Assembly: GCF_036347135.1 (NCBI RefSeq) | Contig: NZ_CP108938.1 | Span: 682,001 to 746,000 of the forward strand | Length of the DNA stretch: 64,000 nucleotides | From: Streptomyces sp. NBC_00775 | Lineage (GTDB): Bacteria > Actinomycetota > Actinomycetes > Streptomycetales > Streptomycetaceae | Direction: 5' to 3' | In this document: piece by piece, positions 20,076 through 45,152 of the stretch | Layout of the letters: each line of letters starts with the position of its first letter | Numbering within the stretch: the first letter of the stretch is position 1 | Position numbers and translations under genes: made by a program | The notes under the pieces: model-generated | What the model saw: only the letters and a program-made list of their open reading frames with translations | Databases searched by the model: none | What the model was told of the DNA's origin: nothing

Positions 20076-20103
20076 TGTCACATTCGGACTCCCTCCTCCC
20101 GTC
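20076..20103 (+). promoter_or_regulatory. ECF41-type promoter of the sigma factor gene
   Basis: TGTCACA at 20076-20082 and CGTC at 20100-20103 are separated by 17 bases and lie 31 bases upstream of the ATG. These are the published -35 and -10 elements of ECF41-group sigma factors, so the gene is probably autoregulated. Confidence 0.8.
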
Positions 20104-20134
20104 GCAGTAGTGAGCGCATCAAGGGAGGCAACGC

Positions 20135-21091
20135 ATGTCAGAAAGCTCCGGGGCCGGTACCGACGGCGCGACGCGGGTGTTCGTCGACCACCGCGAGCTG
20201 CTCTTCGCGATCGTCTACAACATGCTCGGCAGCGTCGCCGACACCGAGGACGTACTCCAGGAGACCTGGCTGTCCTGGAGCAGCCGAACCCACCGCTCCC
20301 CGCTCGACGGGATCGACAACCCGCGCGCCTACCTCGTCCGCATCGCCGTGAACCACGCCCTGGCACGACGCGCCGCCATCACCCGCCGCCGCGAGACCTA
20401 TGTGGGGCCCTGGCTGCCGGATCCCGTGCTCGACGAACCCGCCGCCGACGACTCCGCCGACGAGCGCACCCTGCGGGCCGAGTCGGTGTCGCTGGCGATG
20501 CTCGTGGTCCTGGAGTCGCTGAGCCCGCTGGAGCGGGCGGTGTTCGTCCTCAACGAGGTGTTCGGCTACCCGCACACCGAGATCGCGAAGGTCATCGACC
20601 GCAGCCCGGCGGCGGTGCGCCAGCTCGCGCACCGCGCCCGGGAACACGTGCACGCCCGCCGTCCGCTGTACCGGGCCCATCCCCGTGTACGGCGGCAGGC
20701 GACCGAACGGTTCGTGGCGGCCGCACTCGGCGGTGACATCGCCGCGCTGATGGAGATCCTCGCGCCGGACGTCACGGTGTGGACGGACGGCGGCGGCAAG
20801 GCCCGCTCGGCCGGGCTGCGGCCGGTGCACGGACGGGACAAGGCGGCGCGTCTGTTCGCCGGTTACGCCAGGCGCCGCGGGACCGACCTCGACATCAGCT
20901 ACCGCCGGGTCAACGGCGACGACTCCGCGGTGATCTTCATGGGCGAGTCGCCGTACGCCGTCATGGTCATGGACCTCACCCCGGACGGCGAGCAGGTGTC
21001 CGACGTCTACATCGTCACCAATCCCGAGAAGCTCACGCACGTACGACGGAACAACGAGGAGACCCCGGCCGAGGAAGGGGAGCGCGCGTGA
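20135..21091 (+). CDS. ECF41-group RNA polymerase sigma factor with SnoaL-like C-terminal domain
   Basis: A 318-residue sigma factor. Region 2 lies in LFAIVYNMLGSVADTEDVLQETWL. The YVGPWLPDP linker near residue 89 is the ECF41 hallmark. Region 4 is LSPLERAVFVLNEVFGYPHTEIAKVI near residue 130. The C-terminal NTF2/SnoaL-like domain carries the two conserved ECF41 motifs, TDGGGKARSA (about 214-223) and NPEKL (about 303). In studied ECF41 proteins this extension controls activity in place of an anti-sigma factor. AAGGGAGG is placed six bases before the ATG. Its TGA overlaps the cytochrome b GTG. Confidence 0.93.
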   Translation: MSESSGAGTDGATRVFVDHRELLFAIVYNMLGSVADTEDVLQETWLSWSSRTHRSPLDGIDNPRAYLVRIAVNHALARRAAITRRRETYVGPWLPDPVLDEPAADDSADERTLRAESVSLAMLVVLESLSPLERAVFVLNEVFGYPHTEIAKVIDRSPAAVRQLAHRAREHVHARRPLYRAHPRVRRQATERFVAAALGGDIAALMEILAPDVTVWTDGGGKARSAGLRPVHGRDKAARLFAGYARRRGTDLDISYRRVNGDDSAVIFMGESPYAVMVMDLTPDGEQVSDVYIVTNPEKLTHVRRNNEETPAEEGERA

Positions 21092-22635
21092 CCACCACCG
21101 AACGGCCCGCGGAGAAAACGTCGTCCGGGGAGCGCGTCGCCGACTGGTTCGACGGCCGGCTCGGCATCTACTCCCTCGGCAGGCGGTATCTGCGCAAGGT
21201 CTTCCCGGACCACTGGTCCTTCCTCCTCGGCGAGATCTGCCTCTACAGCTTCGTCGTCCTCGTCCTCACCGGCGTCTATCTCACGCTGTTCTTCCATCCC
21301 TCGATGAACGAGGTGGTCTACCACGGCAGTTACGTCCCGCTGAACGGCATCCGCATGTCGGAGGCGTACGCCTCGACGCTGGACATCAGCTTCGAGGTAC
21401 GCGGCGGACTGCTGATCCGGCAGATCCACCACTGGGCCGCGCTGATCTTCCTCGCCGCGATGCTGACGCACATGATGCGGCACTTCTTCACGGGCTCGTT
21501 CCGCAGGCCCCGCGAGGTCAACTGGGTGTTCGGCTGGACGCTTCTGCTCCTCGGCCTGTTCGAGGGCCTGTTCGGCTACTCGCTGCCGGACGACCTGCTG
21601 TCCGGGACCGGGCTGCGGTTCGTGGACGGGGCGCTCCTGTCGGTGCCGATCGTCGGGACGTACCTCTCGATGTTCCTCTTCGGCGGGGAGTTCCCGGGCC
21701 ATGACATCGTGGCCCGCTTCTACTCCCTCCACATCCTGCTGATACCGGGGATCATGGCGGCCCTCGTCGTGGCGCATCTGATCCTGGTCGTCTACCACAA
21801 GCACACCCAGTTCGCGGGTCCGGGAAAGACCGAACGCAACGTCGTGGGCACGCCGTTCATGCCGGTGTACATGGCGAAGGCGGGCGGTTTCTTCTTCCTG
21901 GTGTTCGGTGTCATCGCGCTCATTTCGGCGGTCGCGACGATCAACCCGGTCTGGGCGTACGGCCCTTACCGCGCCGACCAGGTGTCGACGGGCGCCCAGC
22001 CGGACTGGTACCTGGGCTTCGCCGAGGGGCTGGTCCGTGTCATGCCGGGCTGGGAGATCACCGTGGCGGGCCACACGCTCGTGCTGGGCGTGCTCATCCC
22101 CATCCTCGTCTTCCCCACGCTGCTGGTCCTGATCGGCGTCTATCCGTTCGTGGAGGCCTGGGTCACCAAGGACCATCGCGAACACCATCTGCTGGACCGC
22201 CCGCGCAACCGGCCGGTCCGTACGTCGATCGGGGCGGCGTGGATCAGCGTCTATCTGATCCTGCTCGCGGGTGGCGGCAACGACATCGTGGCGACCCGCT
22301 TCCATCTGTCGATCAACACCGTGACCTGGACGGTACGGATCGCCCTGTTCCTGGTCCCCTTCCTGGTCTTCGTCGTGACCCGCCGCATCTGCCTGGGCCT
22401 GCGGCAGCGGGACCGCGAGCTGGTGGCGCACGGCCGTGCGACAGGCATCATCAAGCGCCTGCCGCACGGCGAGTACGTCGAGGTGCACCGCCCGCTCGGC
22501 CCGGCCGAACTGCACGCTCTCACCGAGCACGAGCACCGGGGGCGCTCAGACCACCGGGACCTCCAGGCGGCTGATCCGCAGCCCGCCGTCGGCGGCCCCC
22601 GGGTGGCCGCCGGCCATGACGAGACGCAGCCGTGA
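21088..22635 (+). CDS. Cytochrome bc1-type cytochrome b subunit, stand-alone copy
   Basis: A 515-residue membrane protein with eight or nine segments. Haem-ligand histidines appear in the pairs IRQIHHWAALIF / THMMRHFF and FYSLHILLIP / VVAHLILVVYHKH. The quinol-site motif PDWYLGF is the actinobacterial form of PEWY. The usual actinobacterial QcrB has QcrC and QcrA (Rieske) neighbours; neither is here, so this is an orphan paralogue. The GTG start overlaps the sigma stop. The final 90 bases overlap the convergent GH2 gene, and the last 30 residues are hydrophilic and may be an extension gained by loss of an earlier stop. Confidence 0.88.
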   Translation: MTTTERPAEKTSSGERVADWFDGRLGIYSLGRRYLRKVFPDHWSFLLGEICLYSFVVLVLTGVYLTLFFHPSMNEVVYHGSYVPLNGIRMSEAYASTLDISFEVRGGLLIRQIHHWAALIFLAAMLTHMMRHFFTGSFRRPREVNWVFGWTLLLLGLFEGLFGYSLPDDLLSGTGLRFVDGALLSVPIVGTYLSMFLFGGEFPGHDIVARFYSLHILLIPGIMAALVVAHLILVVYHKHTQFAGPGKTERNVVGTPFMPVYMAKAGGFFFLVFGVIALISAVATINPVWAYGPYRADQVSTGAQPDWYLGFAEGLVRVMPGWEITVAGHTLVLGVLIPILVFPTLLVLIGVYPFVEAWVTKDHREHHLLDRPRNRPVRTSIGAAWISVYLILLAGGGNDIVATRFHLSINTVTWTVRIALFLVPFLVFVVTRRICLGLRQRDRELVAHGRATGIIKRLPHGEYVEVHRPLGPAELHALTEHEHRGRSDHRDLQAADPQPAVGGPRVAAGHDETQP

Positions 22636-25600
22636 ACCGCGTACGGCATCGAAGGTGATCACCGTCGGCGCGTCGGACGTGGTGGCCCAGTCGACGGCCG
22701 CACCCCGCACCGCCACATAGTCCTCGCCATCCCAGACCGAGACCGCGACCGACGCGGGCAGGGCGTGGGTCGCGTCGACGGTGAAGGAGACCTCGACGCG
22801 GTCGACGGTGCGGGGGCGCGCCCAGGTGACCGAGACCCAGTCCTCGGGGCGGGCCCCGCTGAACGCGGGCAGCAGGGCCGTCGCCGACTTGTAGAAGGCG
22901 TTGGACCAGCCGGTGGCCGCGTCGCCGTCGAGCATGGCGGCGGGGAGGGTGTCGGTGCGGCCCGAGTAACTGGCGTCCGCGAAGGGGTAGTTCGGGGCCG
23001 CTGGATAGTCGGGCTCGAACGCCGTCGCCGCAGTGGTCGCCTTCGGCCCGGCAGGGGTGGTGCGGACGGTCGTGGAGTCCGTACGCAGGCCTTCGGCGCG
23101 GGCGGTCACCTTCACCGGGCCCGCCTTCGTACCGGACCGGACGATCGCGAGTGCCTTGCCGTGGAAGGCGGTTCTGGTGCTCGCCTGGTAGCGCTCGGCG
23201 CTCTCCTCCCGGCCGTTGTCGAGACCCGCGAGGGAGCCACCCGCCACGTCGAACGCGAGCAGGTGCTCGGCGTCGGGCACCACGACACCATGGGCGTCGA
23301 TCACCTCGGCGGTCACGAAGAACAGTGAACGGCCGTCCGCCGCGAGCGTCTTGCGGTCCGCTGTGAGACGGATCGCGTGGGGCTTCCCGGCGGTCCGCAG
23401 CACGTCCGTCGCCACCGTCCTGCCGGCACGGCGGGCGACCGCCTTCAGCTCACCCGGTTCGTACGGCACTTTCCAGCCGAGGTGCAGCTTGCCCGCGCTG
23501 CCGTTCGGGCTGGTGTAACTCCCGGGGTAGGGGCCGTCGGTGAAGGTCTTGTCGTCACCGGGCGCCTCCGTGGTCTCCAGGTACGTACGGCCGTCGGTGG
23601 TCTTCTTGGTGTCGAACTCCCTTGTGCCCAGGGACTTTCCGTTGAGGAACAGCTCGACGGTGTCGACGTTCGCGTAGGCCCAGACCTCGACCGTGTCCCC
23701 CGCTTCGTGGTTCCAGCTCATGGGCAGCAGATGGACCATGGGCTCACCCGTCCACTGGCTCTTGAACAGGTGGTACATGTCCTTGGGGAAGCCGGCCGTG
23801 TCGACCGCGCCGAAGAAGGAGGCCTTCACCGGGAAGACGTCGTACGGCGTGGGCTCGCCGATGTAGTCGATGCCCGACCACAGGAACTGCCCGGCGAACC
23901 ACTTCCGGTCCCGGTCCTTCTTGTGCCCGTACTCGCCGCTCATCGTCCAGGAGGCGAGGTTGTTGTCGTACGAGGAGACCGCGCGCCTGCCGGGGGTGTG
24001 GTTCTCGCCGGTGTTGAGGTGCTCCGGTTCCTGATAGGCGGAGCGGGTCGAGGTCTCGGACGACGACTCCGACTCGAAGAGGAAGAGGTGCGGGTAGGCG
24101 GCGTGCAGGCCGTCCACCGACTTGGCGGTGTTGTAGTTGAGACCGAGCCCGTCCAGCTTGGCGAGCATGAGGTCGGCGGCGGAGCCCTTCGTGGGGACGC
24201 GGCGGTATTTGTCGGAGCCGATGACCAGCGGGCGGGTGTCGTCCGCGGCCTTGATGGCGCCGATGATCCGGTCCGCCATGGCGAGCCCGGCGGTGGAGGT
24301 GGAGTCGGGGACCTCGTTGCCTATGGACCACAGGACCACGGCGGGCGAGTTGCGGGCCGCGAGGACCATCTCGGTCGCGTCCTTCTCGCACCACTCGTCG
24401 AAGAACCGGCCGTAGTCGTACGTCGTCTTGCCGGTCCGCCAGCAGTCGAACGCCTCCACCATCATCACGATGCCCAGCTCCTCGCAGACCTGGATGATCT
24501 GCGGCGAGGGCGGATTGTGCGACGTGCGGAAGGCGTTGACACCCATCGACTTCATGATGGTCATCTGTCTGCGTACGGCGTCGATGCTGATCGCCGCGCC
24601 GAGCGCGCCCTGGTCGTGGTGCAGGTCAACGCCCTTGATCTTGGCGTGGGTGCCGTTGAGGTGGAAGCCCTCGTCCGGGTCGAAGCGGAACGATCGGATA
24701 CCGAAGGTGGTGCGGCAGGTGTCGACGGTCTCGCCGCCGACGCGCAGCTCGGTCACCAGGGTGTAGCGGTGCTCCGGGGTCGCGAAGTCCCACAACTTCG
24801 GCTTGTCGACGGTGAGTTCATGGGTCTCGTCCGCCTGCTCGCCGACCGTGACCGTGGTGACCGTACGGGCGGCGGTGCGGCCGTCGGGGTCGAGGACCGT
24901 TGAGATCACCTGGACATCGGCCGAGGCTCCGGATGCGTTGACGACGGTGGTACGCGCCCGTACGACGGCCCGGTCGTCGCCGACGTCCGGAGTGGTGACG
25001 TAGGTTCCCCAGCGTCCGACATGGATCGTTTCAGTGACGACCAGGCGGGCCTCGCGGTAGATGCCGCTGCCCGAGTACCAGCGGCTGCTGGGGAGTCGGT
25101 TCTGGACCTTGACGGCGATGACGTTGTCCGTGGTGCCGTCCGTATGCAGCAGGTCGGTGAGGTCGAAGGCGAACCCGGTGTAGCCGTAAGGGTGGCGGCC
25201 GGCTTCCGTGCCGTTGCAGTAGACGTACGAGTCCATGTACACGCCGTCGAACTCCACGGAGATCCGCTTGCCGGCGAGGGCGGGCGGCAGCGTGAACGTG
25301 GTGCGGTACCAGCCGAGGCCGCCGGGGAAGAAGCCGGTGCCGCTGGTGGTGCCGTGCTCCGTGGTGGGGGTCTGCTCGATGCTCCAGTCGTGCGGTACGG
25401 CGACCTCACGCCACGCCGAGTCGTCGTAGCCGGGCTGTGCGGCGCCCTCGTACGCGCCCGTGGGGTCGGTGACGCCGCCCATGTTGACCAGCGCGAAGCG
25501 CCAGCCGTCGCGCAGCTCGACCGTGCGTCGCCCTGGGGCTCGACCGGGCGACGCCGCCCAGGCGTCGGCGGCGCCCGGGAGTGCACCGGCCGCGGGTACG

Positions 25601-25641
25601 GCCGTTCCTGCGATCAATACCGATCTTCGACTGACCGTCAT
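22546..25641 (-). CDS. Secreted glycoside hydrolase family 2 (beta-galactosidase-like) with C-terminal F5/8-type domain
   Basis: A 1031-residue extracellular enzyme. A twin-arginine signal (SRRSVLIAG, residues about 4-12) precedes an AWA-A cleavage region near residue 29. GH2 sugar-binding, Ig-like and TIM-barrel domains follow. The acid/base Glu lies in WSIGNEVPDS (about residue 444) and the nucleophile Glu in the FLFESES region near 520. Residues about 880-1031 look like a discoidin-type carbohydrate-binding module (MLDGDAATGWSN). GGGAGAG precedes the ATG. The sugar specificity within GH2 cannot be read directly. Confidence 0.88.
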   Translation of the reverse strand: MTVSRRSVLIAGTAVPAAGALPGAADAWAASPGRAPGRRTVELRDGWRFALVNMGGVTDPTGAYEGAAQPGYDDSAWREVAVPHDWSIEQTPTTEHGTTSGTGFFPGGLGWYRTTFTLPPALAGKRISVEFDGVYMDSYVYCNGTEAGRHPYGYTGFAFDLTDLLHTDGTTDNVIAVKVQNRLPSSRWYSGSGIYREARLVVTETIHVGRWGTYVTTPDVGDDRAVVRARTTVVNASGASADVQVISTVLDPDGRTAARTVTTVTVGEQADETHELTVDKPKLWDFATPEHRYTLVTELRVGGETVDTCRTTFGIRSFRFDPDEGFHLNGTHAKIKGVDLHHDQGALGAAISIDAVRRQMTIMKSMGVNAFRTSHNPPSPQIIQVCEELGIVMMVEAFDCWRTGKTTYDYGRFFDEWCEKDATEMVLAARNSPAVVLWSIGNEVPDSTSTAGLAMADRIIGAIKAADDTRPLVIGSDKYRRVPTKGSAADLMLAKLDGLGLNYNTAKSVDGLHAAYPHLFLFESESSSETSTRSAYQEPEHLNTGENHTPGRRAVSSYDNNLASWTMSGEYGHKKDRDRKWFAGQFLWSGIDYIGEPTPYDVFPVKASFFGAVDTAGFPKDMYHLFKSQWTGEPMVHLLPMSWNHEAGDTVEVWAYANVDTVELFLNGKSLGTREFDTKKTTDGRTYLETTEAPGDDKTFTDGPYPGSYTSPNGSAGKLHLGWKVPYEPGELKAVARRAGRTVATDVLRTAGKPHAIRLTADRKTLAADGRSLFFVTAEVIDAHGVVVPDAEHLLAFDVAGGSLAGLDNGREESAERYQASTRTAFHGKALAIVRSGTKAGPVKVTARAEGLRTDSTTVRTTPAGPKATTAATAFEPDYPAAPNYPFADASYSGRTDTLPAAMLDGDAATGWSNAFYKSATALLPAFSGARPEDWVSVTWARPRTVDRVEVSFTVDATHALPASVAVSVWDGEDYVAVRGAAVDWATTSDAPTVITFDAVRGSRLRLVMAGGHPGAADGGLRISRLEVPVV

Positions 25642-25684
25642 GGCGGCTCTCCCTCATCAGGGCCCATAAGTCATCACAACTGAT

Positions 25685-25870
25685 CGTGAACAAACAGATT
25701 CTGACGGGGTGGCACACAGGGCCGTCAAGGGGTCGGCACCCACTTCCGCCCCGCACGACACATCGGCCGGAAGCCCACCGCACGGATGTGCCGCGTCGGC
25801 CGTCCGTGTTCCGGGGTGCGGAGGGCGCCCACGCACTAGGCTGGAACCAGAGTGAAGCGGTTTGTTCACG
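25685..25870. promoter_or_regulatory. Divergent promoter region with mirrored 11-base sites
   Basis: CGTGAACAAAC at 25685-25695 is exactly complementary to GTTTGTTCACG at 25860-25870. One copy lies about 45 bases upstream of the GH2 start, the other about 30 bases upstream of the phosphatase start. The symmetry suggests a shared regulator binding at both promoters, possibly with looping. Confidence 0.5.
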
Positions 25871-25897
25871 GTGACTGTGCGCAATGGAGTGGCGACG

Positions 25898-28273
25898 ATG
25901 AGCCCGGTCCACCCCGTCGAAGAGGCCGCCACGGCACGGGCAGTCATCGACGAGAACGGCACCCTGGTCCGCTGGAGCGAGGGGGCCCACCGACTGCTGG
26001 GGTACGCGCCGCAGGAGGTCGAGGGCCGCCCCGCCGCTGACCTGCTGGACCGCGCGGGCGCCACGGCGCCGACCGGGCCCACCGGTAACCGCTGGGACGG
26101 AGTGCTCCCCCTGCGCCACCGTGACGGACGCGTCCTGTCCGTGTGGCTGCTCGCCCATCGCAGACAATCGGAAGGCGGATGGCTCGTGGTCACCCCGCTG
26201 GAGGGAGAGGAACCACGCCCACCGGACGACCCGCTGATCAGGGCGGTGCTCACCCAGTCACCCTGCGCGATGGCCATCTACGACGAACGGCTGCGGCTGT
26301 ACGGGATCAACGACGCGATGGCCGAGGTCATCGGTCTCCCCGAGGACCGTATCCGGGGCCTGCGGATCTCCGAGATCGGCGGCAAGCGGACGAGCGAAGA
26401 GCTTGAGGAGCACATGCGCGGCGTGCTCGTCTCCGGCGAGGGGCGCGACGTGGAGACGTACACGCGCACAGGCGGCGAGGACCGCGCGCACGCCTGGATG
26501 TCACGGATCGCCCCGCTGACCGACGCCGACGGACGGGTGCGGGGCGTGTGCCTGGCCGCGCACGACTTCACCGAGCAGTACCGGGCCCGGGAGCGGCTGC
26601 AACTGGTCAACGAGGCCAGCGTCCGCATCGGCAGCACCCTCGACGTCACCCGGACGGCGCAGGAGCTCGCAGACGTCTTCGTGCCCGCAGTCGCCGATTT
26701 CGTCAGCGTCGACCTGCTCGATCCGCCGGAGCACGGGGGCGAGCCGGACTCCGAGCTGCCGACCGCCCCGGTCACACTCCGCCGCGCAGCCCATCGATCG
26801 GTGAATCCGGGCTCCCCCGAAGCGGTCGTCATACTCGGCGAGGTCGACGTCTACCCCGCCGCCTCACCGCAGGGCGATTCCCTGATCGCCGGTCGGACGA
26901 TCGTGGTGCCGGACGCGAACAACACGATGGAGGAGTGGCTGACCTGGGACGAACGCCGACGCGAGCGCGTCGCGAAGCTCGGCATCCACGCCACCATGTC
27001 GGTGCCCATCCGGGCCCGGGGCCAGACTCTGGGCGTGGCGGTGCTCACCCGGTTCCGACAGCCCGGCCCCTTCACCCCCGACGACGTCCTGCTCGCCGAG
27101 GAGGTCACCGCCCGGGCTGCCGTCTGCATCGACAACGCCCGCCGCTTCTCCCGCGAGCGCCAGACCGCACTGGCCCTGCAGCGCAGTCTGCTCCCCCAGT
27201 CGCTGCCCCGGACGGCGGCCGTGGACGCGGCCTCGCGGTATCTTCCCGCGGCGCGGGCCGGGGTGGGCGGCGACTGGTTCGACGTGATCCCGCTGTCCGG
27301 GCTGCGGGTCGCCATGGTCGTCGGCGACGTCGTCGGCCACGGCATCCAGGCCTCGGCGACCATGGGGCGGCTGCGCACCGCCGTCCGCACCCTCGCCGAC
27401 ATCGACCTGGCCCCGGACGAGCTGCTCACCCACCTCGACGACCTCGTCGTGCGGCTGTCGGAGGAGGCCGGGGCCGGAGGCACCACCGGTGAGGTCGGCG
27501 CCACCTGCCTGTACGCGGTGTACGACCCTCTCTCCCGGCGCTGCACCCTCGCGCGCGCAGGGCATCCGCCTCCCTTCATCGCCCCTCCGGACGGTCCGCC
27601 CCGGCAGCTCGAGCTCCCGGCCGGACCGCCGCTCGGCCTGGGCGGACTACCGTTCGAGTCGGTGGAACTCGAGCTGCGCGAGGGCACGGTGCTGGCCCTG
27701 TACACCAACGGGCTGATCGAGAGCCGCGGGCGGGAGCTCGACGTCGGCCACCAACTGCTGTCCCGAGCCCTGGAGCAGTCGTCCCATTCCCTGGAATGGG
27801 CGTGTCATGCGATCCTGCAGGCGCTGCTTCCGGTGGGCGGCGCCCAGGACGATGTGGCCCTGCTGCTCGCCCGCACCCACGGCCTGCCCCGCTCCCAGGT
27901 GGCCACCTGGGACATTCCCGCCGACCCCGCCCTCGTCGCGCCGATACGCAAGCAGGTGGACGAGCAGCTGGACAACTGGGGTCTGAGCGAGGCGACGTTC
28001 ACGGCCGAACTCGTCGTGAGCGAACTGGTCACCAACGCCATCCGGTACGGCGAGGCACCCATCCGGCTGCGCCTCATCCACGACGACGCCACCCTCATCT
28101 GCGAGGTCTCCGACAGCAGCCACACCGCCCCGCATCTACGCCGGGCGAAGATCTATGACGAGGGCGGCCGCGGGCTGCTCCTCGTCGCCCAGCTCACCCA
28201 GCGCTGGGGCAGCCGGCACACGCCCGACGGCAAGACGATCTGGGCGGAGCTGACGCTGATCGGGGAGGACTGA
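25898..28273 (+). CDS. PAS-GAF-SpoIIE phosphatase with C-terminal HATPase domain
   Basis: A 791-residue soluble signalling protein. Two PAS-like segments cover residues about 15-220 and a GAF domain about 245-415. A PP2C/SpoIIE phosphatase follows (GVGGDWFDVIPL and VVGDVVGHGIQAS near 460-490). An RsbW-like HATPase (VVSELVTNAIRYGEAPI, EGGRGLLLVAQL) ends the chain. This is the streptomycete layout in which one chain holds both the switch phosphatase and the anti-sigma-type kinase of partner-switching pathways. GGAG lies eight bases before the ATG at 25898; upstream GTG and TTG codons in frame lack such a site. Confidence 0.9.
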   Translation: MSPVHPVEEAATARAVIDENGTLVRWSEGAHRLLGYAPQEVEGRPAADLLDRAGATAPTGPTGNRWDGVLPLRHRDGRVLSVWLLAHRRQSEGGWLVVTPLEGEEPRPPDDPLIRAVLTQSPCAMAIYDERLRLYGINDAMAEVIGLPEDRIRGLRISEIGGKRTSEELEEHMRGVLVSGEGRDVETYTRTGGEDRAHAWMSRIAPLTDADGRVRGVCLAAHDFTEQYRARERLQLVNEASVRIGSTLDVTRTAQELADVFVPAVADFVSVDLLDPPEHGGEPDSELPTAPVTLRRAAHRSVNPGSPEAVVILGEVDVYPAASPQGDSLIAGRTIVVPDANNTMEEWLTWDERRRERVAKLGIHATMSVPIRARGQTLGVAVLTRFRQPGPFTPDDVLLAEEVTARAAVCIDNARRFSRERQTALALQRSLLPQSLPRTAAVDAASRYLPAARAGVGGDWFDVIPLSGLRVAMVVGDVVGHGIQASATMGRLRTAVRTLADIDLAPDELLTHLDDLVVRLSEEAGAGGTTGEVGATCLYAVYDPLSRRCTLARAGHPPPFIAPPDGPPRQLELPAGPPLGLGGLPFESVELELREGTVLALYTNGLIESRGRELDVGHQLLSRALEQSSHSLEWACHAILQALLPVGGAQDDVALLLARTHGLPRSQVATWDIPADPALVAPIRKQVDEQLDNWGLSEATFTAELVVSELVTNAIRYGEAPIRLRLIHDDATLICEVSDSSHTAPHLRRAKIYDEGGRGLLLVAQLTQRWGSRHTPDGKTIWAELTLIGED

Positions 28274-28400
28274 CGGCCTCGGGGGGGGGCGGCCGGCGCG
28301 ACGTCTGATGCTCCCCCACGGCAGCAGTCCGCCCGCGCTGCTCACGTGGCCCACGTGCCCTGCCCGGTGCTGCTGGGCTGGCCCGAAGCGGCACCGGACA

Positions 28401-29342: not shown

Positions 29343-29405
29343 CCTCCCGAAAGGCGCATCGGCCTAGCGTGAGGCACCTGGACACCGGTGAGAAGGGGTG
29401 GTCGC

Positions 29406-32996: not shown

Positions 32997-33106
32997 GGCG
33001 GCAGTATGGCCAGGGCCCGCGAGAGGGACCAACGCATTTATCGCGCACGCAGGCCTCTGCTACCCGGGTCTCGGTGCGATGGGGAGACGCGCATCACATT
33101 GGCCGA

Positions 33107-33134
33107 TGTCACAACTCGCGGGAGCTGTTCCGTC
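33107..33134 (+). promoter_or_regulatory. ECF41-type promoter upstream of the first AhpD-like gene
   Basis: TGTCACA (33107-33113), 17 bases, CGTC (33131-33134), with the ATG 40 bases further on. Element sequence and spacing equal those upstream of the ECF41 gene at 20076-20103. Confidence 0.78.
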
Positions 33135-35729: not shown

Positions 35730-35932
35730 TGGTTCGCGCTCATGGGTGTCACCTGTCCATTGTGTGTCCGGCCGCGTCCCCGTACGCGTGTCCCTCCCCG
35801 TGTCCGTGGTGGCCCGGAACGCGGTCCGACCGGCGCGGCACCCGGTCCGGTGACCCGGTCGGGTGCCGCGCCGGTCGCGAGGAAGCCGGCGTCAGGGTCG
35901 GGCGTCAGGCCTCAGCCGCCAGGCCTCGGTCG

Positions 35933-37713: not shown

Positions 37714-37932
37714 CGCTCTTCCCTCGTGCTCGGGGGGCCGGAACCCGCCTGGCTGCTCACCCGCCACGCTAAGGGCCCGCGAACCGGGATCCGTGGTACC
37801 CGGGAGGTCACTGAGGGGAGGGCCGTAGTACTTCGGTACGACGGAGTCATCCGCGTCGGATGACATCGCCGGCCGCGTGAGGCCGTCCGACCACGCGACG
37901 GGCCTTGTGCTCGTTACCGGATGATGGCCGCT

Positions 37933-38400
37933 ATGCGCATCCGTATCGACGCCGTAGACCTGCCCGGTTCCACCTGCCCGGCCCCCGCCGACGCCGCCTT
38001 CGCCACGTACGGCAACATCCATGTCGCCGTACAACGCCGCGACCGTCCGGCCGAGGTCCTGGAACCGCACCCCGGCGACGCCGAGTCCGCGACCTGGACC
38101 CTGGACTGCACCGCGACCACCTCGCCGACCGGCACCGACGTGACGGGCCCCTACGTGCAGAACCGTCTGGGCCGCCGGTTCATCTACCTGTCGTGGGGGA
38201 CGGTCGACGAGTCGGGCGTCTTCACGATGTTCCGCCGCGCCAAGCTGATGCTCGACACGATCCCCGCCGAGGTACTCGCCGCGGCCGCCCGCGACGGCCT
38301 GCTGGTCGGACGCCTCGGCCTGACCGACACCGGCGGTACACCTCTGTGCGCGCGGGTGGAGCCCCCGCGGATCACCTGGACCGCCGAGGCGGGCGACTAG
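37933..38400 (+). CDS. DUF5990-family protein
   Basis: A 155-residue protein with a beta-rich pattern (MRIRIDAVDLPG, HVAVQRRDRPAEVL, YVQNRLGRRFIYLSWG) typical of the actinobacterial DUF5990 family, which has no known function. ATG codons at 37921 and 37924 are possible earlier starts; 37933 is chosen because the conserved region begins there. No ribosome binding site decides the matter. Confidence 0.75.
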   Translation: MRIRIDAVDLPGSTCPAPADAAFATYGNIHVAVQRRDRPAEVLEPHPGDAESATWTLDCTATTSPTGTDVTGPYVQNRLGRRFIYLSWGTVDESGVFTMFRRAKLMLDTIPAEVLAAAARDGLLVGRLGLTDTGGTPLCARVEPPRITWTAEAGD

Positions 38401-38537
38401 GGCGGACGTCGCGGCTCTCACGGTCGCGGGCCTGTGGCTGCGGTGCATACTCATGGCTCCCCTGTCGTGATTCCGGTGCCCGAAGCCGGGTATCACCCGG
38501 TTGAGCAGGCTCGTACGGAACGGACGTAACAAAGGGC

Positions 38538-40280
38538 ATGCCGACCTTCATAGCCAGCAGGCACGTGGACCGCGTGCCGGTGAGCAGCGCGGAGCCGCCG
38601 AGGCGATTCGAGTGGCTTCGGCGGCACCGGCGGTGGCTGTTCGTGGTTGCGGTGGTCGCGCTGCTCGCCGAGATGGCGGTCGCGATGGTCACGACGGCCG
38701 TGGAGCAGACGCCGACGATCGACGAACCCGTGTACGTGGGCACGGCGGTGGTCTACGTCCAGCAGCACAGCCTGCGCTACAACCCCGAGCATCCGCCGCT
38801 GGGCAAGCTGATCATCGCGAGCGGGCTGGTGTTCGCCCATCCGCATCTGGACGCCGGCTTCAAGGGTGATCAGACGGCGCTCGGCCGGCGGGTGCTGTAC
38901 GAGTCGGGCAACGATCCCTGGCGGGTGATGTGGTGGGCACGGCTGCCGGTGATCGTGCTGACGCTGCTGTTCGGCCTGGTCGTCCTCGCGTTCGCCCGTG
39001 AACTCGTCGGCCCCGCGGGCGGGTTGGTGGCACTCGCCCTGTACGCGTTCTCGCCCGACGTCATCGCACACGGCTCGCTGGCCACGCTCGACGTGCCGGC
39101 GTCGGGTTTCCTGCTGACGTCGGTGTGGCTGCTGTGGCGGGCCCGGCGCCGACCGCTCCTCCATCTCCCGCTCGCCGGGGCCGCGCTCGGGGCGGCGGTG
39201 GCCACGAAGATGAGTACGCTGCCGGCCGTTCCGGTGCTGTTGCTCCTGGCGGTGGCGTCGGTCTGGCATGCGCGGGGCCTCCGCACGCCCGCGGGGACAC
39301 GGCCCCTCGGCACGTCCGCGGAAGCACAGGCCCTCGGCGCATCCGCGAAGGCGCGGCTCCTCGGGCTCGCCGCGGCCGGCGCGACCGGTATGGCGCTGGT
39401 GGCGCTCGCCGTGGTGTGGGCCACCTACTTCGCCGTCGACCCCCAGCTGCGCTGGACGGCTCCCGCACACCTCCCGGCCGTCCATGGGCTGCGCGGGCTG
39501 CTCGTCGACCGGCTGCCCTTCCCGCAGCCGTACCGGGACGGGATGCGCGTCCAGTTCGGCTTCGAGAACGCGACGTGGCAGGGCTTTCTGTTCGGCCGGC
39601 TCTATCACGGTGGGCTCTGGTACTACCTGCCGGCCGCGCTGCTGGTGAAGACGCCGCTCGGCATGGCGGCGCTGTGGCTCGCCGGTGCCGTCGCGATGGT
39701 CTCCATACCCCGGCTGCGGCCCGCCGCCCCGTACCTCCTGCTCCCCCCGGCTCTGCTGCTGGCCGCGGCCATGAACGGCTCCCGCGATCTGGGGGTGCGC
39801 TACGCGCTGTTCATACCGGTGTTCCTCTCGGTCGCCGCTGCCGGTGTCGTCGCCTTCCGACGGCGGTGGGCGCACATCGCCACGGCGGCGCTGGTCCTGT
39901 TCGTCGCCGTGAGTTCGCTGCTCGCGTACCCGTACTACCTGCCGTACTCCAACGAGGCGTTCGGCGGCCCGTCGAAGACCCATCTGCGGCTGCACGACTC
40001 GAACGTCGACTGGGGCCAGGACCTGGGGCGGCTCGCCGACCGTCTGGACCGGCGTTACCCGCACGAGAAGGTCTGGCTCGTCTACAAGGGCGCCGGTGTG
40101 CCGTCGTACTACGGGATCGACGCGGCCGATCCCCGCGAGGCGCCACCGGGCGAGGTGCACGGGCTGCTCGTCGTGTCCGACACCTCGGTCGCCAAGGCCG
40201 ACGGCCGGCTGGCGGCGCTGCTCGCCACCAGCCGGCCGATCGACGAGGTCGGCCACTCGATCACGATCTACCGTCGGTGA
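38538..40280 (+). CDS. GT39-like GT-C glycosyltransferase (protein O-mannosyltransferase-like)
   Basis: A 580-residue membrane protein with about ten hydrophobic segments. The first extracellular loop has the catalytic-type acidic motif TIDEPVYVGTAVVYVQ followed by YNPEHPPLGKLI (about residues 58-95), which is the ArnT/PMT-like pattern. The C-terminal soluble part begins near DSNVDWGQDLGRLADRLDR and is also typical. It uses a polyprenyl-phosphate sugar at the outer membrane face. The acceptor is not known. Confidence 0.85.
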   Translation: MPTFIASRHVDRVPVSSAEPPRRFEWLRRHRRWLFVVAVVALLAEMAVAMVTTAVEQTPTIDEPVYVGTAVVYVQQHSLRYNPEHPPLGKLIIASGLVFAHPHLDAGFKGDQTALGRRVLYESGNDPWRVMWWARLPVIVLTLLFGLVVLAFARELVGPAGGLVALALYAFSPDVIAHGSLATLDVPASGFLLTSVWLLWRARRRPLLHLPLAGAALGAAVATKMSTLPAVPVLLLLAVASVWHARGLRTPAGTRPLGTSAEAQALGASAKARLLGLAAAGATGMALVALAVVWATYFAVDPQLRWTAPAHLPAVHGLRGLLVDRLPFPQPYRDGMRVQFGFENATWQGFLFGRLYHGGLWYYLPAALLVKTPLGMAALWLAGAVAMVSIPRLRPAAPYLLLPPALLLAAAMNGSRDLGVRYALFIPVFLSVAAAGVVAFRRRWAHIATAALVLFVAVSSLLAYPYYLPYSNEAFGGPSKTHLRLHDSNVDWGQDLGRLADRLDRRYPHEKVWLVYKGAGVPSYYGIDAADPREAPPGEVHGLLVVSDTSVAKADGRLAALLATSRPIDEVGHSITIYRR

Positions 40281-40301
40281 CCGCCCGAGGGGTTTCTGCC
40301 C

Positions 40302-40835
40302 TCACGTGCCGGGGGTGAGCAGGTCCAGCACCCGTTCCCAGTGGAACTCCCGTCGCCCGCCGTCCTGTTGCGGCTCCCCGGAGTACGGGTCACCGAACCG
40401 GACGCCCATCCCGCTCAGCCGCTCGATGCTCGCGTGGTAGGCGGGGTGGGTCGCCAACGCCTCGTTCACGCAGGGCAGTACGGCGATCGGGACACCGAGG
40501 CCGTACGCCTCGCACAGCGTTCCCAGGGCGAGGGTGTCGGATATGCCGGCCGCCCATTTGTTGACGGTGTTGAAGGTGGCCGGTGCGACGGCCACCGCGT
40601 CGGGGGCCGGGAAGGGGCGCGGGTCGCCCGGGGACCGCCAGGCGGACCGGATGGGGCGTCCGGTCTGCGCCTCGACGGCCGTCGCGTCGATGAAGCCGAG
40701 GCCCTGGGGGGTGGCGATGACACCGACCTCCCAGTTCCGCTCCTGGGCCGCGGTGATCAGTTTGCTGATGTCCTCAGCGATGCCGGCCGCGCAGACGACG
40801 ACGTAGAGGAAGGGCTTCTCGGCGTGTTCACTCAC
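40302..40835 (-). CDS. Flavoprotein of the HFCD / flavin prenyltransferase-like family
   Basis: A 177-residue Rossmann-like flavoprotein. Typical blocks are YVVVCAAGIAEDISKLITAA, VAVAPATFNTVNKWAAGISDTLA (about residues 82-104, the flavin-binding loop) and VPIAVLPCVNEALATHPAY. Related proteins decarboxylate peptidyl or pantothenoyl cysteine or carry FMN. The conserved His of true decarboxylases is not obvious here, so the reaction is open. Confidence 0.82.
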   Translation of the reverse strand: MSEHAEKPFLYVVVCAAGIAEDISKLITAAQERNWEVGVIATPQGLGFIDATAVEAQTGRPIRSAWRSPGDPRPFPAPDAVAVAPATFNTVNKWAAGISDTLALGTLCEAYGLGVPIAVLPCVNEALATHPAYHASIERLSGMGVRFGDPYSGEPQQDGGRREFHWERVLDLLTPGT

Positions 40836-40864
40836 CCGGAAACCCTAATGAACACACGGGACTT

Positions 40865-41323
40865 CTACCGCACCGGGAAGGAGTCCCCGCGCTCCGGCTC
40901 AGGCCGCGGGCCGAAGATCCGCCGCTCCTTCTCCTCGATCCGTACGTCATTGATACTGGCCTCCCGACGCGTCATCAGACCGTGCTCGTCGAACTCCCAC
41001 AGCTCATTGCCGTACGACCGCCACCACTGGCCGTCGGCGTCGAGCGACTCGTACTGGAAGCGGACGGCGATGCGGTTGCCGTCGAAGGCCCAGAGGTCCT
41101 TGCGCAGGGCGTACTCCCGCTCGCGTGCCCACTTCGCCGTGAGGAGCTCCACGATCTGGGCGCGGCCGGTGACGAAGGTGTCCCGGTTGCGCCAGACGGA
41201 GTCCTCGGAGTAGGCGAGCGAGACCTTGTGGGGATCGCGGGTGTTCCAGGCGTCCTCGGCGGCCTGGACCTTCTGGGCGGCGGTCTCACGGGTGAACGGG
41301 GGCAGGGGCGGACGGTCGGTCAT
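40865..41323 (-). CDS. DUF1348 / NTF2-like protein
   Basis: A 152-residue NTF2-fold protein. The blocks [30 protein letters not shown] and [29 protein letters not shown] identify DUF1348, a widespread cytosolic family without a proven activity. The ATG at 41323 has GAGG upstream. It diverges from a TetR gene across a gap holding two perfect palindromes and is probably repressed by that TetR. Confidence 0.88.
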
Positions 41324-41358
41324 GGCGATTCCTCGGGCTCGACGATCTCGAAGCAGTA

Positions 41359-41409
41359 GAGAACGAGCGTTCTCCGTCATGACTGCTAACGTAGAGAACG
41401 ACCGTTCTC
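41359..41409. promoter_or_regulatory. Twin TetR operators
   Basis: GAGAACGAGCGTTCTC at 41359-41374 and GAGAACGACCGTTCTC at 41394-41409 are both perfect 7-base-arm palindromes differing only at the centre, with centres 35 bases apart. They sit between the divergent DUF1348 and TetR starts, one nearer each gene. Confidence 0.85.
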
Positions 41410-41428
41410 ACGTCAAGGAGTCCCCCGC

Positions 41429-42031
41429 ATGGACAGCACGACCGCCCGGGACCAGGCCCTCACCCTCGCCCGGGAACAGGCGCTCGACGCCGCGGAGGAG
41501 CTGTTCTACGGCCGCGGCATCCAGACCGTCGGCATGGACGACATCCGCGGCGCGTCAGGGGTGTCGCTCAAACGGCTCTACCAGCTGTTCCCCGCCAAGG
41601 AGCGGCTCGTCGAGGCGTATCTGGAGCGGCGCGATGTCCGGTGGCGGCAGCGGCTGGCCGAGCACGTCGACCGGCACGGGGAACCCGAGGAGCGGATCCT
41701 GGCGGTCTTCGACTGGCTCGGGCAGTGGTTCGCGGAGCCCGGCTTCCGGGGCTGCGCCTGGATCAACTCGTACGGGGAACTCGGCACCACCTCGCCCGTC
41801 GTCACTGCCCAGGTCACGGCGCACAAAGAGGCGTTCAAGGACTACCTGAGAGGCCTCGTGGCCGACGCCGGGCTTCCGTCCCCCCTCGCGGACCAGCTGT
41901 ATCTGCTCGCCGAGGGCGCCATGGTCACCGCGGGCATCACGCGGAGCACGGAGACCGCCGGCCAGGCGGCCGACGCGGCGCGGGTACTGATGTCGAGGGC
42001 GAGGACGAGCGGGTCACGGCGTAAAGGGTGA
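41429..42031 (+). CDS. TetR-family transcriptional regulator
   Basis: A 200-residue repressor. The N-terminal helix-turn-helix is LDAAEELFYGRGIQTVGMDDIRGASGVSLKRLYQLFPAKERLVEAYL (residues about 19-65), with a C-terminal ligand domain containing FRGCAWINSYGEL. AAGGAG is eight bases before the ATG. The two operators just upstream suggest autoregulation and control of the divergent DUF1348 gene. Confidence 0.92.
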   Translation: MDSTTARDQALTLAREQALDAAEELFYGRGIQTVGMDDIRGASGVSLKRLYQLFPAKERLVEAYLERRDVRWRQRLAEHVDRHGEPEERILAVFDWLGQWFAEPGFRGCAWINSYGELGTTSPVVTAQVTAHKEAFKDYLRGLVADAGLPSPLADQLYLLAEGAMVTAGITRSTETAGQAADAARVLMSRARTSGSRRKG

Positions 42032-42090
42032 TCGCCGACCCGCACGCCTGCGCCGACTCGACCTCGCCGTCGTCGAGAAGTGATCCTCTT

Positions 42091-42291
42091 TCAGGTCCCG
42101 GACACCGTGATGGCGCCGACCGGACAGGCCCGTGCCGCCTCCCGCACCATCGCGTCGCCGCCGCCGTCCTCGCGGCCCGGCAGCACCTCGCTGAATCCGT
42201 CGTCGTCCTGGGTGAAGACGCCCGGGGCGGCGAGGGCACACTGGCCCGCGCCGATGCAGACGTCCTTGTCGATGGAGATGTCGATGTTCAT
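42091..42291 (-). CDS. Ferredoxin of the P450-associated 3Fe-4S type
   Basis: A 66-residue ferredoxin. The cluster ligands are spaced CIGAGQC (residues about 12-18) with a third Cys in ACPVGAI near residue 55. Gly/Ala replaces the central cysteine, which gives a 3Fe-4S cluster. It begins 12 bases after the P450 stop and is the natural electron donor to that enzyme. Confidence 0.92.
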   Translation of the reverse strand: MNIDISIDKDVCIGAGQCALAAPGVFTQDDDGFSEVLPGREDGGGDAMVREAARACPVGAITVSGT

Positions 42292-42303
42292 GCCCGCAGC
42301 CTC

Positions 42304-43566
42304 TTACCAGGTCACGGGGAGTTCCAGCATCCCCTGGATCGTGTCGCCGGGTTTGAACGGGATGGCGTCCACCGGTGCGGCGAGCCGCAGCCCGGGGAAC
42401 CGGTCGAAGAGCGACAGCAGCGCGATCTCCATCTCGGCCCGGGCGAGGTTCTGGCCGAGGCACTGGTGGATGCCGAAGCCGAACGCCACGTGATGGCGGG
42501 CCGGGCGGTGCCAGTCCAGGGCGTCCGGTTCTGCGAAGGTGTGCTCGTCGCGGTTGATGACGGAGGTGGAGAAGACGACGCCCTCGTCGGCGCGGATGGT
42601 CTTCCCGGCCACCTCGATGTCCTCGGTGGCCACGCGCAGCAGCCCGTCGGCGATGGAGAGGAAGCGCAGCAACTCCTCGACGGCGGCGGGCATCAGCGTC
42701 GGATCGGCCCGCAGTTCGGCCAGCTGCTCCGGATGCCTCAGCAGGGTGAAGGTGCCGAGCGAGATCATGTTCGCCGTCGTCTCGTGCCCGGCGACGAGCA
42801 GGATCGTCGCCAGCGAGATCAGTTCCTGACGGTCCACCGTCCCCTCGCGCAGCTGATCGTGGATGAGCTCGTCGAGGAGTCCGTCCCCGGGATCCTTCTG
42901 CTTGCGGTCGATCAACGACTCGAAGTACGTGTCCAGTTGGTCGCGTGCGTTCTCGATGTCGGCCGCGGCAGGACCGCGCAGCAGTCTGCGGGACTGTTCC
43001 TCGAAGAAGTCGTGGTCGGTGTACGGGACGCCGAGCAGGGCGCAGATCACCATGGAGGGCACGGGCAGCGCGAAGGCGTTGACCAGCTCGGCCGGCGGGC
43101 CCTGCGCCGCCATCCGGTCGAGGAGCCGGTCGACGGTCTCCTGGATGCGCGGGCGCAGCGCGGCGGTCCGTTTGAGGGTGAAGCTCGGGACCAGCATGCG
43201 GCGTTGGGTGTGGTGCTCGGGGTCGTCGAGGCCGAGCAGCGCGACACGGCGGTTGCGGGCCGCGGCGAACCGCTCCGTGGGCGACGGGAACGCGGGCCGG
43301 GTGCGGTCCGACGACAACCGCGGGTCGGAGAGGAGTTCACGGGCGGTGGTGTGGCCGGTGACCACCCACACGCCGCGCCCGTCGAACAGGGAGATCCGCG
43401 AGAGCGGGCGCGCCTCGCGCAACGGATCGTAGGCGGTGGGCGGGTGGTAGGGACACGTACGGTCCTGGGGGAAGGCGATCGGCCCTGTCGTGACATGGTC
43501 TGTCGCGGCGGGCTCTGTCATGGCGGGTTCTGTCATGGGGGGTTCTGTCATGGGGGGTTCTGTCAT
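42304..43566 (-). CDS. Cytochrome P450 with ferredoxin partner (CYP105/107-like)
   Basis: A 420-residue soluble P450. The I-helix reads LLVAGHETTANMIS, the ExxR motif lies in EELLRFLS, and the haem loop is FGFGIHQCLGQNLARAE (Cys near residue 368). All core motifs are intact. The N-terminus contains four near-identical MTEP units, each beginning with a possible start codon; the first ATG at 43566 has GAGG six bases upstream. The downstream ferredoxin supports a two-gene monooxygenase operon. The substrate is unknown. Confidence 0.9.
   Translation of the reverse strand: MTEPPMTEPPMTEPAMTEPAATDHVTTGPIAFPQDRTCPYHPPTAYDPLREARPLSRISLFDGRGVWVVTGHTTARELLSDPRLSSDRTRPAFPSPTERFAAARNRRVALLGLDDPEHHTQRRMLVPSFTLKRTAALRPRIQETVDRLLDRMAAQGPPAELVNAFALPVPSMVICALLGVPYTDHDFFEEQSRRLLRGPAAADIENARDQLDTYFESLIDRKQKDPGDGLLDELIHDQLREGTVDRQELISLATILLVAGHETTANMISLGTFTLLRHPEQLAELRADPTLMPAAVEELLRFLSIADGLLRVATEDIEVAGKTIRADEGVVFSTSVINRDEHTFAEPDALDWHRPARHHVAFGFGIHQCLGQNLARAEMEIALLSLFDRFPGLRLAAPVDAIPFKPGDTIQGMLELPVTW
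43507..43566 (-). repeat. Tandem 15-base repeat encoding MTEPP/MTEPA
   Basis: Four in-frame copies of a 15-base unit based on GGTTCTGTCATGGGG (plus-strand reading) encode the repeated MTEP pentapeptide at the P450 N-terminus. Each copy supplies an ATG, so slippage changes the N-terminal length without loss of frame. Confidence 0.85.
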
Positions 43567-43608
43567 GGTGACCTCGCAAAGCGATGGTTCCCTCTTGCCG
43601 ATCTTCAT

Positions 43609-43627
43609 TAGATGCCCCGGGCATCTA
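43609..43627. promoter_or_regulatory. Palindromic operator candidate upstream of the P450
   Basis: TAGATGCCC (43609-43617) and GGGCATCTA (43619-43627) form a perfect dyad around one central base. It lies 43 bases upstream of the P450 start. The rest of this 358-base gap to the LysE gene shows no gene. Confidence 0.6.
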
Positions 43628-43924
43628 CACGGCCACGCGAAGTTCGGCCAGATGCGCCGGACGCGTGATCTGGCCGAAGCGTGCGGGGACCGACGCCGCT
43701 CTCCTCGGGTTTCCCGTCCGTGTCACGGTCCCGGGGACGCACGCATGGCCTGATCTCTTCCGGAGCGGCCCCTGGGTAATTGGCTTGCGTGGGCAGATCC
43801 GGTGGCCCCAGGATCTGCCCATGTCCACGATCGAAGCCTTCCTGCCGCCGACCTCCGCCGCCGCTCGTCCGGTGCGGGTCCAGCAGCAGCCCGGCCGACC
43901 GCGGAGGCCTACGCTTCGCCGGTC

Positions 43925-44557
43925 GTGACCGCCGCGCTCGTCGCGGGGCTTCTCGCGGGCTATGGCATCGCCATGCCCGTCGGAGCGGTCGCGACCTACC
44001 TCGTCTCCCTCACCGCTCGTACATCCCTGCGGATCGGCGCATGCGCCGCGCTGGGCGTGGCGACCGCCGACGGGCTCTACGCCCTGGTCGCCGCGCTCGG
44101 CGGTTCCGCGCTCGCGGCCGTGCTGCAGCCGATACTGCTCCCGCTGCGCTTGGCGTCGGGACTGGTGCTGGCCGCGCTGGCGATCCGCGGCGCGGTCACC
44201 GCGTGCCGCCAGTACCGCGGGCGACGGCTCACCGCCCGCTCCGGCGAGGATCCGCCTCGCCCGGCGCGCGCCTATCTGGCACTGCTGGGGATCACCCTGC
44301 TCAACCCCACCACGGTGATCTACTTCGCGGCGCTGGTGCTCGGCAGCCGTACCGCCGAGGCGGTGCGCCCCCTGGAGCAAGGCGTGTTCGTCCTCGCCGC
44401 GTTCGCCGCGTCCGCGAGCTGGCAACTCCTGCTCGCCGGGGGCGGCGCGCTGCTCGGCCGGACCCTGACGGGGCGTCGGGGACGACTGATGACGGCGCTC
44501 GCGTCGAGCGTCGTGATCACGGCGCTGGCCGTACGGATGCTGATGGGCCCGCAATGA
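43925..44557 (+). CDS. LysE-family amino-acid/metabolite exporter
   Basis: A 210-residue membrane protein with six hydrophobic segments. LLAGYGIAMPVGAVATYLVSL near the start and LLGITLLNPTTVIYFAALVLG near residue 120 are the LysE/RhtB signatures. The GTG at 43925 is the most likely start since the frame above it is low-complexity and lacks hydrophobic character, but no good ribosome binding site is visible. The exported compound is unknown. Confidence 0.83.
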   Translation: MTAALVAGLLAGYGIAMPVGAVATYLVSLTARTSLRIGACAALGVATADGLYALVAALGGSALAAVLQPILLPLRLASGLVLAALAIRGAVTACRQYRGRRLTARSGEDPPRPARAYLALLGITLLNPTTVIYFAALVLGSRTAEAVRPLEQGVFVLAAFAASASWQLLLAGGGALLGRTLTGRRGRLMTALASSVVITALAVRMLMGPQ

Positions 44558-44615
44558 GGGTGACGAGGGCGGAGAGGCCCCCTGCCATCTTTCCTCGAAC
44601 TTTCTTCGCCGGGCC

Positions 44616-44642
44616 TGTCACATTCCCCCGCCGGGCTCCGTC
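44616..44642 (+). promoter_or_regulatory. ECF41-type promoter upstream of the second AhpD-like gene
   Basis: TGTCACA (44616-44622), 16 bases, CGTC (44639-44642). The spacing is one base shorter than at the other two sites. Transcription would begin near 44650, which excludes the ATG at 44649 as the translation start. Confidence 0.75.
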
Positions 44643-44690
44643 AGTGCAATGACAGCGCAGCAAGCGCAGCGAACTCTTGAGGAGAACGTC

Positions 44691-45152
44691 ATGCAGGCAC
44701 GGATGAAGAACCCGGCGATGATCCTTCCTGGCGCCATGGAGGCCATCCAGGGTCTGTACAAGGCCACCTCCAAGGGCGGTGTCCCCCAGCAGACCCTGGA
44801 GCTCGTGCATCTGCGGGCCAGCCAGATCAACGGGTGCAGCGCCTGTGTCGACGCCGGTGGCCGGGGCGGGAAGAAGGCGGGTGTGACGGACGAGCGCCTG
44901 TGGTCCGTCGCGGCCTGGCGCGAGGCGCCGTACTACTCGGACGCCGAACGGGCCGCGCTGGCGCTGGCCGAGGAGATGACCCGGCTGAACGATCGTTCCG
45001 GCGACGCGGTCTCCGACGAGCTGTGGGACGAGGTCGCGGACCACTACGACGAGCAGCAACTCGCCGCGCTCATCCTCTGGATCGCGACGACGAACTTCTT
45101 CAACCGTCTCAACGCGACGATCAAGGAGCCGGCGGGGGCCACCTGGGGGTGA
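44691..45152 (+). CDS. Carboxymuconolactone decarboxylase / AhpD-like protein lacking the relay His
   Basis: A 153-residue helical protein of the AhpD superfamily. The motif reads RASQINGCSACVDAGGRGGKKAG, so the CxxC is present but the His normally four residues after the second Cys is replaced by Gly. IATTNFFNRLN ends the core. GAGGAG lies six bases before the ATG at 44691; an in-frame ATG at 44649 overlaps the promoter and is rejected. The ECF41-type promoter places it in the same regulon as the gene at 33175. Confidence 0.88.
   Translation: MQARMKNPAMILPGAMEAIQGLYKATSKGGVPQQTLELVHLRASQINGCSACVDAGGRGGKKAGVTDERLWSVAAWREAPYYSDAERAALALAEEMTRLNDRSGDAVSDELWDEVADHYDEQQLAALILWIATTNFFNRLNATIKEPAGATWG

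Follow-up and report, generated by a model that had tools for sequence, protein, structure and literature searches.

Promoter classes of ECF41-type sigma factors in Streptomyces sp. NBC_00775 and the predicted regulon of one clade

A stretch of 64 kb of the genome of Streptomyces sp. NBC_00775 (contig NZ_CP108938.1, positions 682,001 to 746,000; hereafter the window) contains a gene for an ECF41-type sigma factor (the window sigma) and two genes for AhpD-like proteins of the carboxymuconolactone decarboxylase (CMD) family, here CMD1 and CMD2. All three are preceded by the same bipartite element, and it had been predicted from the sequence that this sigma factor controls its own gene and both AhpD genes. 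Our analysis points to a different arrangement. Several ECF41 sigma factors would have the -35 TGTCACA in common and use at least two classes of -10; the clade of the window sigma would recognize promoters of the form TGTCACA-N16/17-CTC, and the two AhpD genes, whose promoters are of the CGTC class, would depend on other ECF41 paralogues. For the window sigma the most likely targets are the operon that contains it (sigma plus a QcrB-type cytochrome b), the EmrB-type efflux gene divergent from it and, at 564 kb, a distant gene for an alpha/beta-hydrolase. As originally predicted, there is probably a dispersed ECF41 regulon, although mostly with other members than those named. Sequences, their conservation and gene linkage were read directly; transcription, the pairing of sigma factors with promoters and the signal are our inference, and the explanation as a whole we hold with somewhat better than even confidence.

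The promoter class of the window sigma clade

The sigma gene itself had been identified correctly. Its product has sigma regions 2 and 4 (PF04542, PF08281) followed by a C-terminal SnoaL-like extension (PF12680), scores above the curated cut-off of the SigJ-type family NF007214 (281.5 vs. 271), and the linker between the two sigma regions (WLPDP) is one conservative change away from the WLPEP motif described for ECF41 (PMC3426412). The three elements were also found as exact matches at the predicted places (Table 1), directly upstream of their genes, the end of CGTC being separated from the ATG by 31 nucleotides (nt) for the sigma, 40 for CMD1 and 48 for CMD2. A scan of the window for TGTCACA-N14..19-CGTC gave four matches vs. 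0.37 expected, a number that was reached in 0 of 100 shuffles; chance accounts poorly for the three elements. The fourth match (9127-9151), absent from the original prediction, has a spacer of 14, outside the range of the ECF41 promoter (TGTCACA, 16+/-1 spacer, CGTC; Wecke et al., 2012, PMC3426412), and sits 39 nt upstream of an ATG (9191) whose reading frame resembles, by eye, an FMN-dependent alpha-hydroxy-acid oxidase.

Throughout the genome (11.1 Mb, one contig) the exact pattern with spacers of 15 to 18 was found at 17 sites, vs. nine for a reversed control pattern. In our own reading nine of the 17 stand before a plausible start codon (L001-L004, L006, L010, L011, L012, L015), and the other eight are apparently intragenic or unplaced. 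Two of the sites lie close upstream of what look by eye like an SDR/epimerase-like gene (L015, G000:10032474) and a small monooxygenase-like gene (L010, G000:4709050), and, having no ECF41-type match nearby, are possible further orphan ECF41 targets. The control pattern yields about half as many matches in the genome, a point in favour of the view that the boxes are relics or chance occurrences and the genes under no ECF41 control. However, the boxes are conserved upstream of the CMD1, CMD2, sigma and efflux gene homologues while much of the flanking sequence differs, which makes this explanation very improbable.

A way to define the promoter class is to read the region upstream of the sigma gene in its orthologues. 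Among 72 orthologues with at least 64% identity the box was present in 69, and its -10 was CTC in 63 (49 with spacer 17, 14 with spacer 16), CGTC in two, GGTC in two and something else in the remaining two. Four strains are represented by two loci each, and counting each of them once leaves CTC in 59/65. The -35 and the spacing of the ECF41 promoter are kept across the clade and it is the -10 that deviates. The two CGTC boxes are those of the window itself and of L109, and the nearest relative (90%) has CCTC, i.e., the CGTC of the window is an unusual variant within its clade. Of the proposed autoregulation, the part that stands is an ECF41-type promoter in front of the sigma gene; as a -10, CGTC is not what the clade has. 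Position 79 in region 2.4 of the sigma follows the same division. Relatives at about 50% identity that have L or M there showed xGTC in 7/7 readable promoters, while with other residues the -10 was CTC in 67/76 (63/72 without duplicates), in a comparison of 110 loci that includes 27 without a readable -10.

Table 1. Genes and promoter elements discussed in the text, numbered from the first letter of the window (aa, amino acids)
Feature	Position	Strand	Remarks
DHA2/EmrB-type efflux MFS gene	18347..19960	-	divergent from sigma
MFS promoter, CTC-type ECF41, TGTCACA-N17-CCTC	20004..20031	-	43 nt before GTG 19960
Crp-like element TGAGACGTACGTCACA	20046..20061	+	14 nt before sigma -35; conserved in orthologues
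Sigma promoter, ECF41-type, TGTCACA-N17-CGTC	20076..20103	+	-10 is CTC in most orthologue boxes (63/69)
ECF41/SigJ-type sigma factor gene, 318 aa	20135..21091	+	sigma2, WLPDP linker, sigma4, SnoaL_2 C-terminal domain
QcrB-type cytochrome b gene, 515 aa	21088..22635	+	start overlaps sigma stop (GTGA)
Crp-like element GAGA-N6-TCACA	33084..33098	+	8 nt before CMD1 -35
CMD1 promoter, ECF41-type, TGTCACA-N17-CGTC	33107..33134	+	xGTC type kept across genus
CMD1, AhpD-like CMD family gene, 157 aa	33175..33648	+	PF02627; CxxC
CMD2 promoter, ECF41-type, TGTCACA-N16-CGTC	44616..44642	+	
CMD2, AhpD-like CMD family gene, 153 aa	44691..45152	+	PF02627; CxxC

ECF41 paralogues and the two AhpD genes

When the genome was searched with the window sigma, 17 matches were obtained, of which ten are strong (E 1e-34 or better), so that there are about ten ECF41-type sigma genes. 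Five of the others adjoin an enzyme-type gene preceded by a TGTCACA box (by eye a CMD, two SDR-like, an epimerase-like and a DoxX-like gene), and in all five the -10 is xGTC. With this number of paralogues, and with the same box at their neighbours, the -35 motif alone cannot pair a target with a sigma, and control of both AhpD genes by the window sigma is left unsupported.

The CxxC motifs of the two CMD proteins are CGFC and CSAC. Homologues of CMD1 (E<=1e-25) were found in 242 of 246 genomes of the genus, and 59 of the 246 carry the window sigma (E<=1e-100). The -10 of CMD1 was xGTC at all of the 30 loci read first (28 CGTC, 2 TGTC). In the 12 relatives for which both promoters were read (G022, G024, G068, G109, G122, G128, G183, G196, G208, G236, G237 and G244) the sigma had CTC in 12/12 and CMD1 had CGTC in 12/12; G106 was excluded because no CMD1 box was found, and our own genome is the exception, with CGTC at both. 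Across 91 genomes an exact TGTCACA was present at CMD1 in 17/22 that carry the window sigma and in 60/69 that do not. Both the disagreement of the -10s and the persistence of the box in genomes devoid of the sigma argue against the window sigma as the driver of CMD1.

The retention of the CMD1 promoter whichever ECF41 clade is present could also mean that there is no partition at all, the paralogues using a single pooled set of TGTCACA promoters whose firing depends only on which sigma is active. The identical -35, the presence of ten sigmas for few sites and the CGTC at the promoter of the window sigma would agree with such a pool. It would not explain why sigma and CMD1 differ in their -10 in every one of the 12 relatives, nor why, in nine genomes compared (see below), the distant hydrolase gene has its promoter where the sigma occurs and lacks it where the sigma is missing, and we consider it rather unlikely.

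Under the preferred explanation, CMD1 would be under some other ECF41, or several; its driver could not be assigned to any ECF41 clade by tests over the 91 genomes read and co-occurrence in the 246. The 9213-kb clade was tried for this role, since among the first 30 loci the -35 was deviant in 3/3 without the clade vs. 1/27 with it (p 0.001). The claim was dropped when 60 further genomes gave an exact box in 30/36 with vs. 20/24 without (p 1); over all 91 the figures are 57/64 vs. 20/27 (p 0.11). An elimination search found the clade in 6/6 genomes keeping CMD1, including G008, in which no more than one ECF41-type gene was found, and it is a candidate rather than an established driver. In the same 60 genomes exact CMD1 boxes were rarer with the window sigma (7/12 vs. 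43/48, p 0.02; all 91, p 0.31). A single CMD1 locus of the 30, L142 (relative G175), has a full ECF41 gene adjoining; in the tree, the L142 sigma and L340 of G129 group beside the clade of our own DoxX- and epimerase-linked sigmas. By coordinates, a sigma of the 808-kb type lies 1.4 kb from a CMD1-type gene in G064.

The start of CMD2 is likely 44691 and not 44649, since GAGGAG precedes the former and the latter is only 6 nt after CGTC. A box of the form [TCG]GTCACA-N15..17-CGTC was read in 24/30 CMD2 loci, and in six of the 30 an ECF41 gene adjoins the CMD2 homologue. The tree places these six sigmas (support 99/97) with our own at 808, 5896 and 5832 kb. A firm sister relationship to the 808-kb gene is seen for that of L179 alone, while by pairwise match the 808-kb gene is the best in five and the 5896-kb gene in one; as the firm placement is only within the wider group, our confidence in the preferred explanation is slightly lowered. 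Coordinates add pairs of CMD2 with 808/5896-type sigmas in G147, where they are divergent with 151 nt between them, and in G060, at a distance of about 2 kb; pairs of a CMD2-like gene and a sigma in G209 and G052 are weaker. Along these lines, CMD2 (E<=1e-62) co-occurs with the 808/5896-kb group (23/28 vs. 114/218, p 0.0024), the values for the window sigma being 8/28 vs. 51/218 (p 0.64); over the four cut-offs tried, p was 0.0024-0.032 for the former and 0.083-0.64 for the latter. No window-type sigma was found beside CMD2 in the 30 loci (about 1.5 kb on each side) or among the matches listed. Some linkage at a scale of tens of kb is present in two close relatives, where 26 kb (G208) and 48 kb (G040) separate CMD2 from the window-type sigma; our own genome has 81 kb between CMD2 and the 808-kb sigma. 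Taken together, the linkage speaks against the window sigma at CMD2, which is most likely under a sigma of the 808/5896-kb group. By eye, many of the CMD2 upstream regions (L164-L193) have an AT-rich, often palindromic GGAAAA..TTTTCC-like stretch just before the -35; no such stretch was noticed at the CMD1 and sigma promoters.

The arrangement originally predicted, with the window sigma regulating itself and both AhpD genes, can be weighed at this point. It would account for one motif at three sites within 25 kb, for the CGTC of the sigma promoter, for a Crp-like element common to the sigma and CMD1 promoters (see below) and for the co-occurrence of strong CMD1 homologues (E<=1e-50) with the window sigma (57/206 vs. 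2/40, p 0.001). The same homologues co-occur, less strongly, with the 9213-kb clade (157/206 vs. 23/40) and with the 808/5896-kb group (122/206 vs. 15/40), and all three associations may be explained by lineage or genome size. Against it are the CTC of the clade, the CMD1 promoter kept without the sigma, the linkage of CMD2 to a different ECF41 group and the neighbourhoods of 80 named relatives of the window sigma (up to 10 kb on each side, often less), where one locus had a CMD-type match, about 30% identical. We regard this arrangement as quite unlikely.

Predicted targets of the window sigma

The sigma and QcrB genes probably form an operon (Table 1). The QcrB protein scores 769.5 with NF050120 (cut-off 500), and four of its histidines, which we take to be the heme ligands, align with those of the M. 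smegmatis QcrB. Actinobacterial QcrB is usually placed in the qcr gene cluster; here the gene is outside it, its neighbours being the sigma gene and, on the other side, a convergent gene of GH2 type. The QcrB gene is found directly 3' of the sigma in 40/47 orthologues with at least 70% identity (37/44 without duplicates), in 1/21 at 64-70% and in 0/13 below; in three Nonomuraea loci (L078, L090, L102) an epimerase-like gene, by eye, is in its place. On the other side, loci with a divergent MFS gene have [TC]GTCACA and a CTC -10 (spacer 15-17) facing it in 13/15 cases (12/14 without duplicates). This promoter appears also in Actinomadura and Nocardia, where the MFS is only about 35% identical.

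A CTC-type scan of our own genome gave eight sites, six of which were dropped as unplaced or unconvincing. Besides the MFS site, the one retained is TGTCACA-N17-CCTC, 29 nt before the alpha/beta-hydrolase gene at 563757. We have read 30 hydrolase loci and compared the nine genomes with an orthologue of at least 73% identity. The promoter ([TC]GTCACA-N16/17-CCTC) was present in 5/6 genomes with the sigma and in 0/3 without it, and in the sixth sigma-bearing genome, G244, the hydrolase gene lies about 114 nt 3' of the sigma on the same strand. The test was prompted by our own genome, and its exclusion gives 5/5 vs. 0/3. Of the other 21 loci (<=58%), 20 had no box within 220 nt and one (L283) had CGTCACA at -164 with no clear -10. 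In the relative G040 a CTC-type box (L320, 1082-1108) precedes what appears by eye to be an NAD(P)-binding SDR-like gene, possibly an extra member of the regulon in this close relative.

A second input may act at the sigma and CMD1 promoters. In the 45 nt preceding the -35, the Crp-like pattern GWGA-N6-TCAC was found at 24/30 CMD1, 45/71 sigma and 1/25 CMD2 promoters (0.0-0.1 in shuffles), the distance from TCAC to the -35 being 14-15 nt for the sigma and 9 nt (20 loci), 10 (1), 13 (1) or 20 (2) for CMD1. The consensus of Streptomyces Crp is GTG(N)6GNCAC (PMC10033298), and the putative sites of the window read GAG where it has GTG.

Several observations weigh against the CTC regulon proposed here. 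The window strain's own sigma promoter is CGTC, which means either that the sigma reads both -10s or that autoregulation has changed. The link between region 2.4 and the -10 is suggestive, as the two -10 classes are also two clades and the comparison is confounded by descent. CTC-type sites are not enriched, neither in our own genome (8 vs. 9 for the control) nor in ten relatives (86 vs. 81). A close hydrolase orthologue is missing from most of the 59 genomes that carry the sigma, and no box precedes the 53% homologues in G146 and G227. To these have to be added the co-occurrence of CMD1 with the window sigma given above and the 6/30 CMD2 loci that lack an xGTC promoter altogether.

As for the biological role, if one sigma did control an extra QcrB together with an efflux pump and a hydrolase, this would be in keeping with a response to a respiratory poison. 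ECF41 proteins are held in check by the SnoaL extension and activated by a conformational change, likely upon binding of a small molecule (PMC8999054), and by analogy with the family the window sigma would be released when its SnoaL domain binds a small molecule. One could go further and imagine an ECF41 branch that changed its -10 preference from CGTC to CTC, with changes in region 2.4, became insulated from its sister sigmas and now runs the spare bc1 cytochrome b, the efflux pump and the hydrolase as a possible set for target bypass, export and detoxification, with Crp as second input; this extended version is tentative and we find it doubtful. Streptomyces genomes carry many ECF41s with a common -35. 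If one clade does have a separate -10 class and a respiratory and efflux regulon, it would illustrate how cross-talk between paralogous sigmas is avoided, and orphan ECF41s would gain testable targets.

Comparison with known ECF41 and QcrB systems

In the openly licensed literature, no paper on an ECF41-QcrB link was found by title or by the start of the abstract and, newer ECF classification papers aside, none that deals with the CTC class, with QcrB as a partner or with the link to the hydrolase. The word "cytochrome" is absent from the main text of PMC3426412. That paper describes ECF41 as generally having a single COE target, with more than 30% of the genes lacking a COE neighbour. The window sigma resembles the systems described there in its sigma2/sigma4 architecture with a C-terminal extension, its WLPEP-type linker, the TGTCACA -35 and the lack of an anti-sigma gene among the direct neighbours. 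It differs in the CTC of its clade, in a Streptomyces partner that is usually QcrB-type and in likely having more than one target; no COE gene adjoins it, its neighbours being the QcrB and MFS genes. With mycobacterial SigJ it has in common a score above the curated cut-off of NF007214, and its operon partner is different. Extra copies of bc1 cytochrome b outside the qcr-cta locus have been described in Streptomyces as QcrB2 and QcrB3 (PMC7931247), which the window gene resembles in its location; the part of that paper drawn on here mentions no ECF41 link. One parallel for a regulon that goes beyond a COE gene is the ECF41 protein RpoE10 of Azospirillum, whose reported control extends to motility and lateral flagella (PMC8999054). 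Its targets are unrelated to those predicted here, but they provide a precedent for a wider ECF41 regulon.

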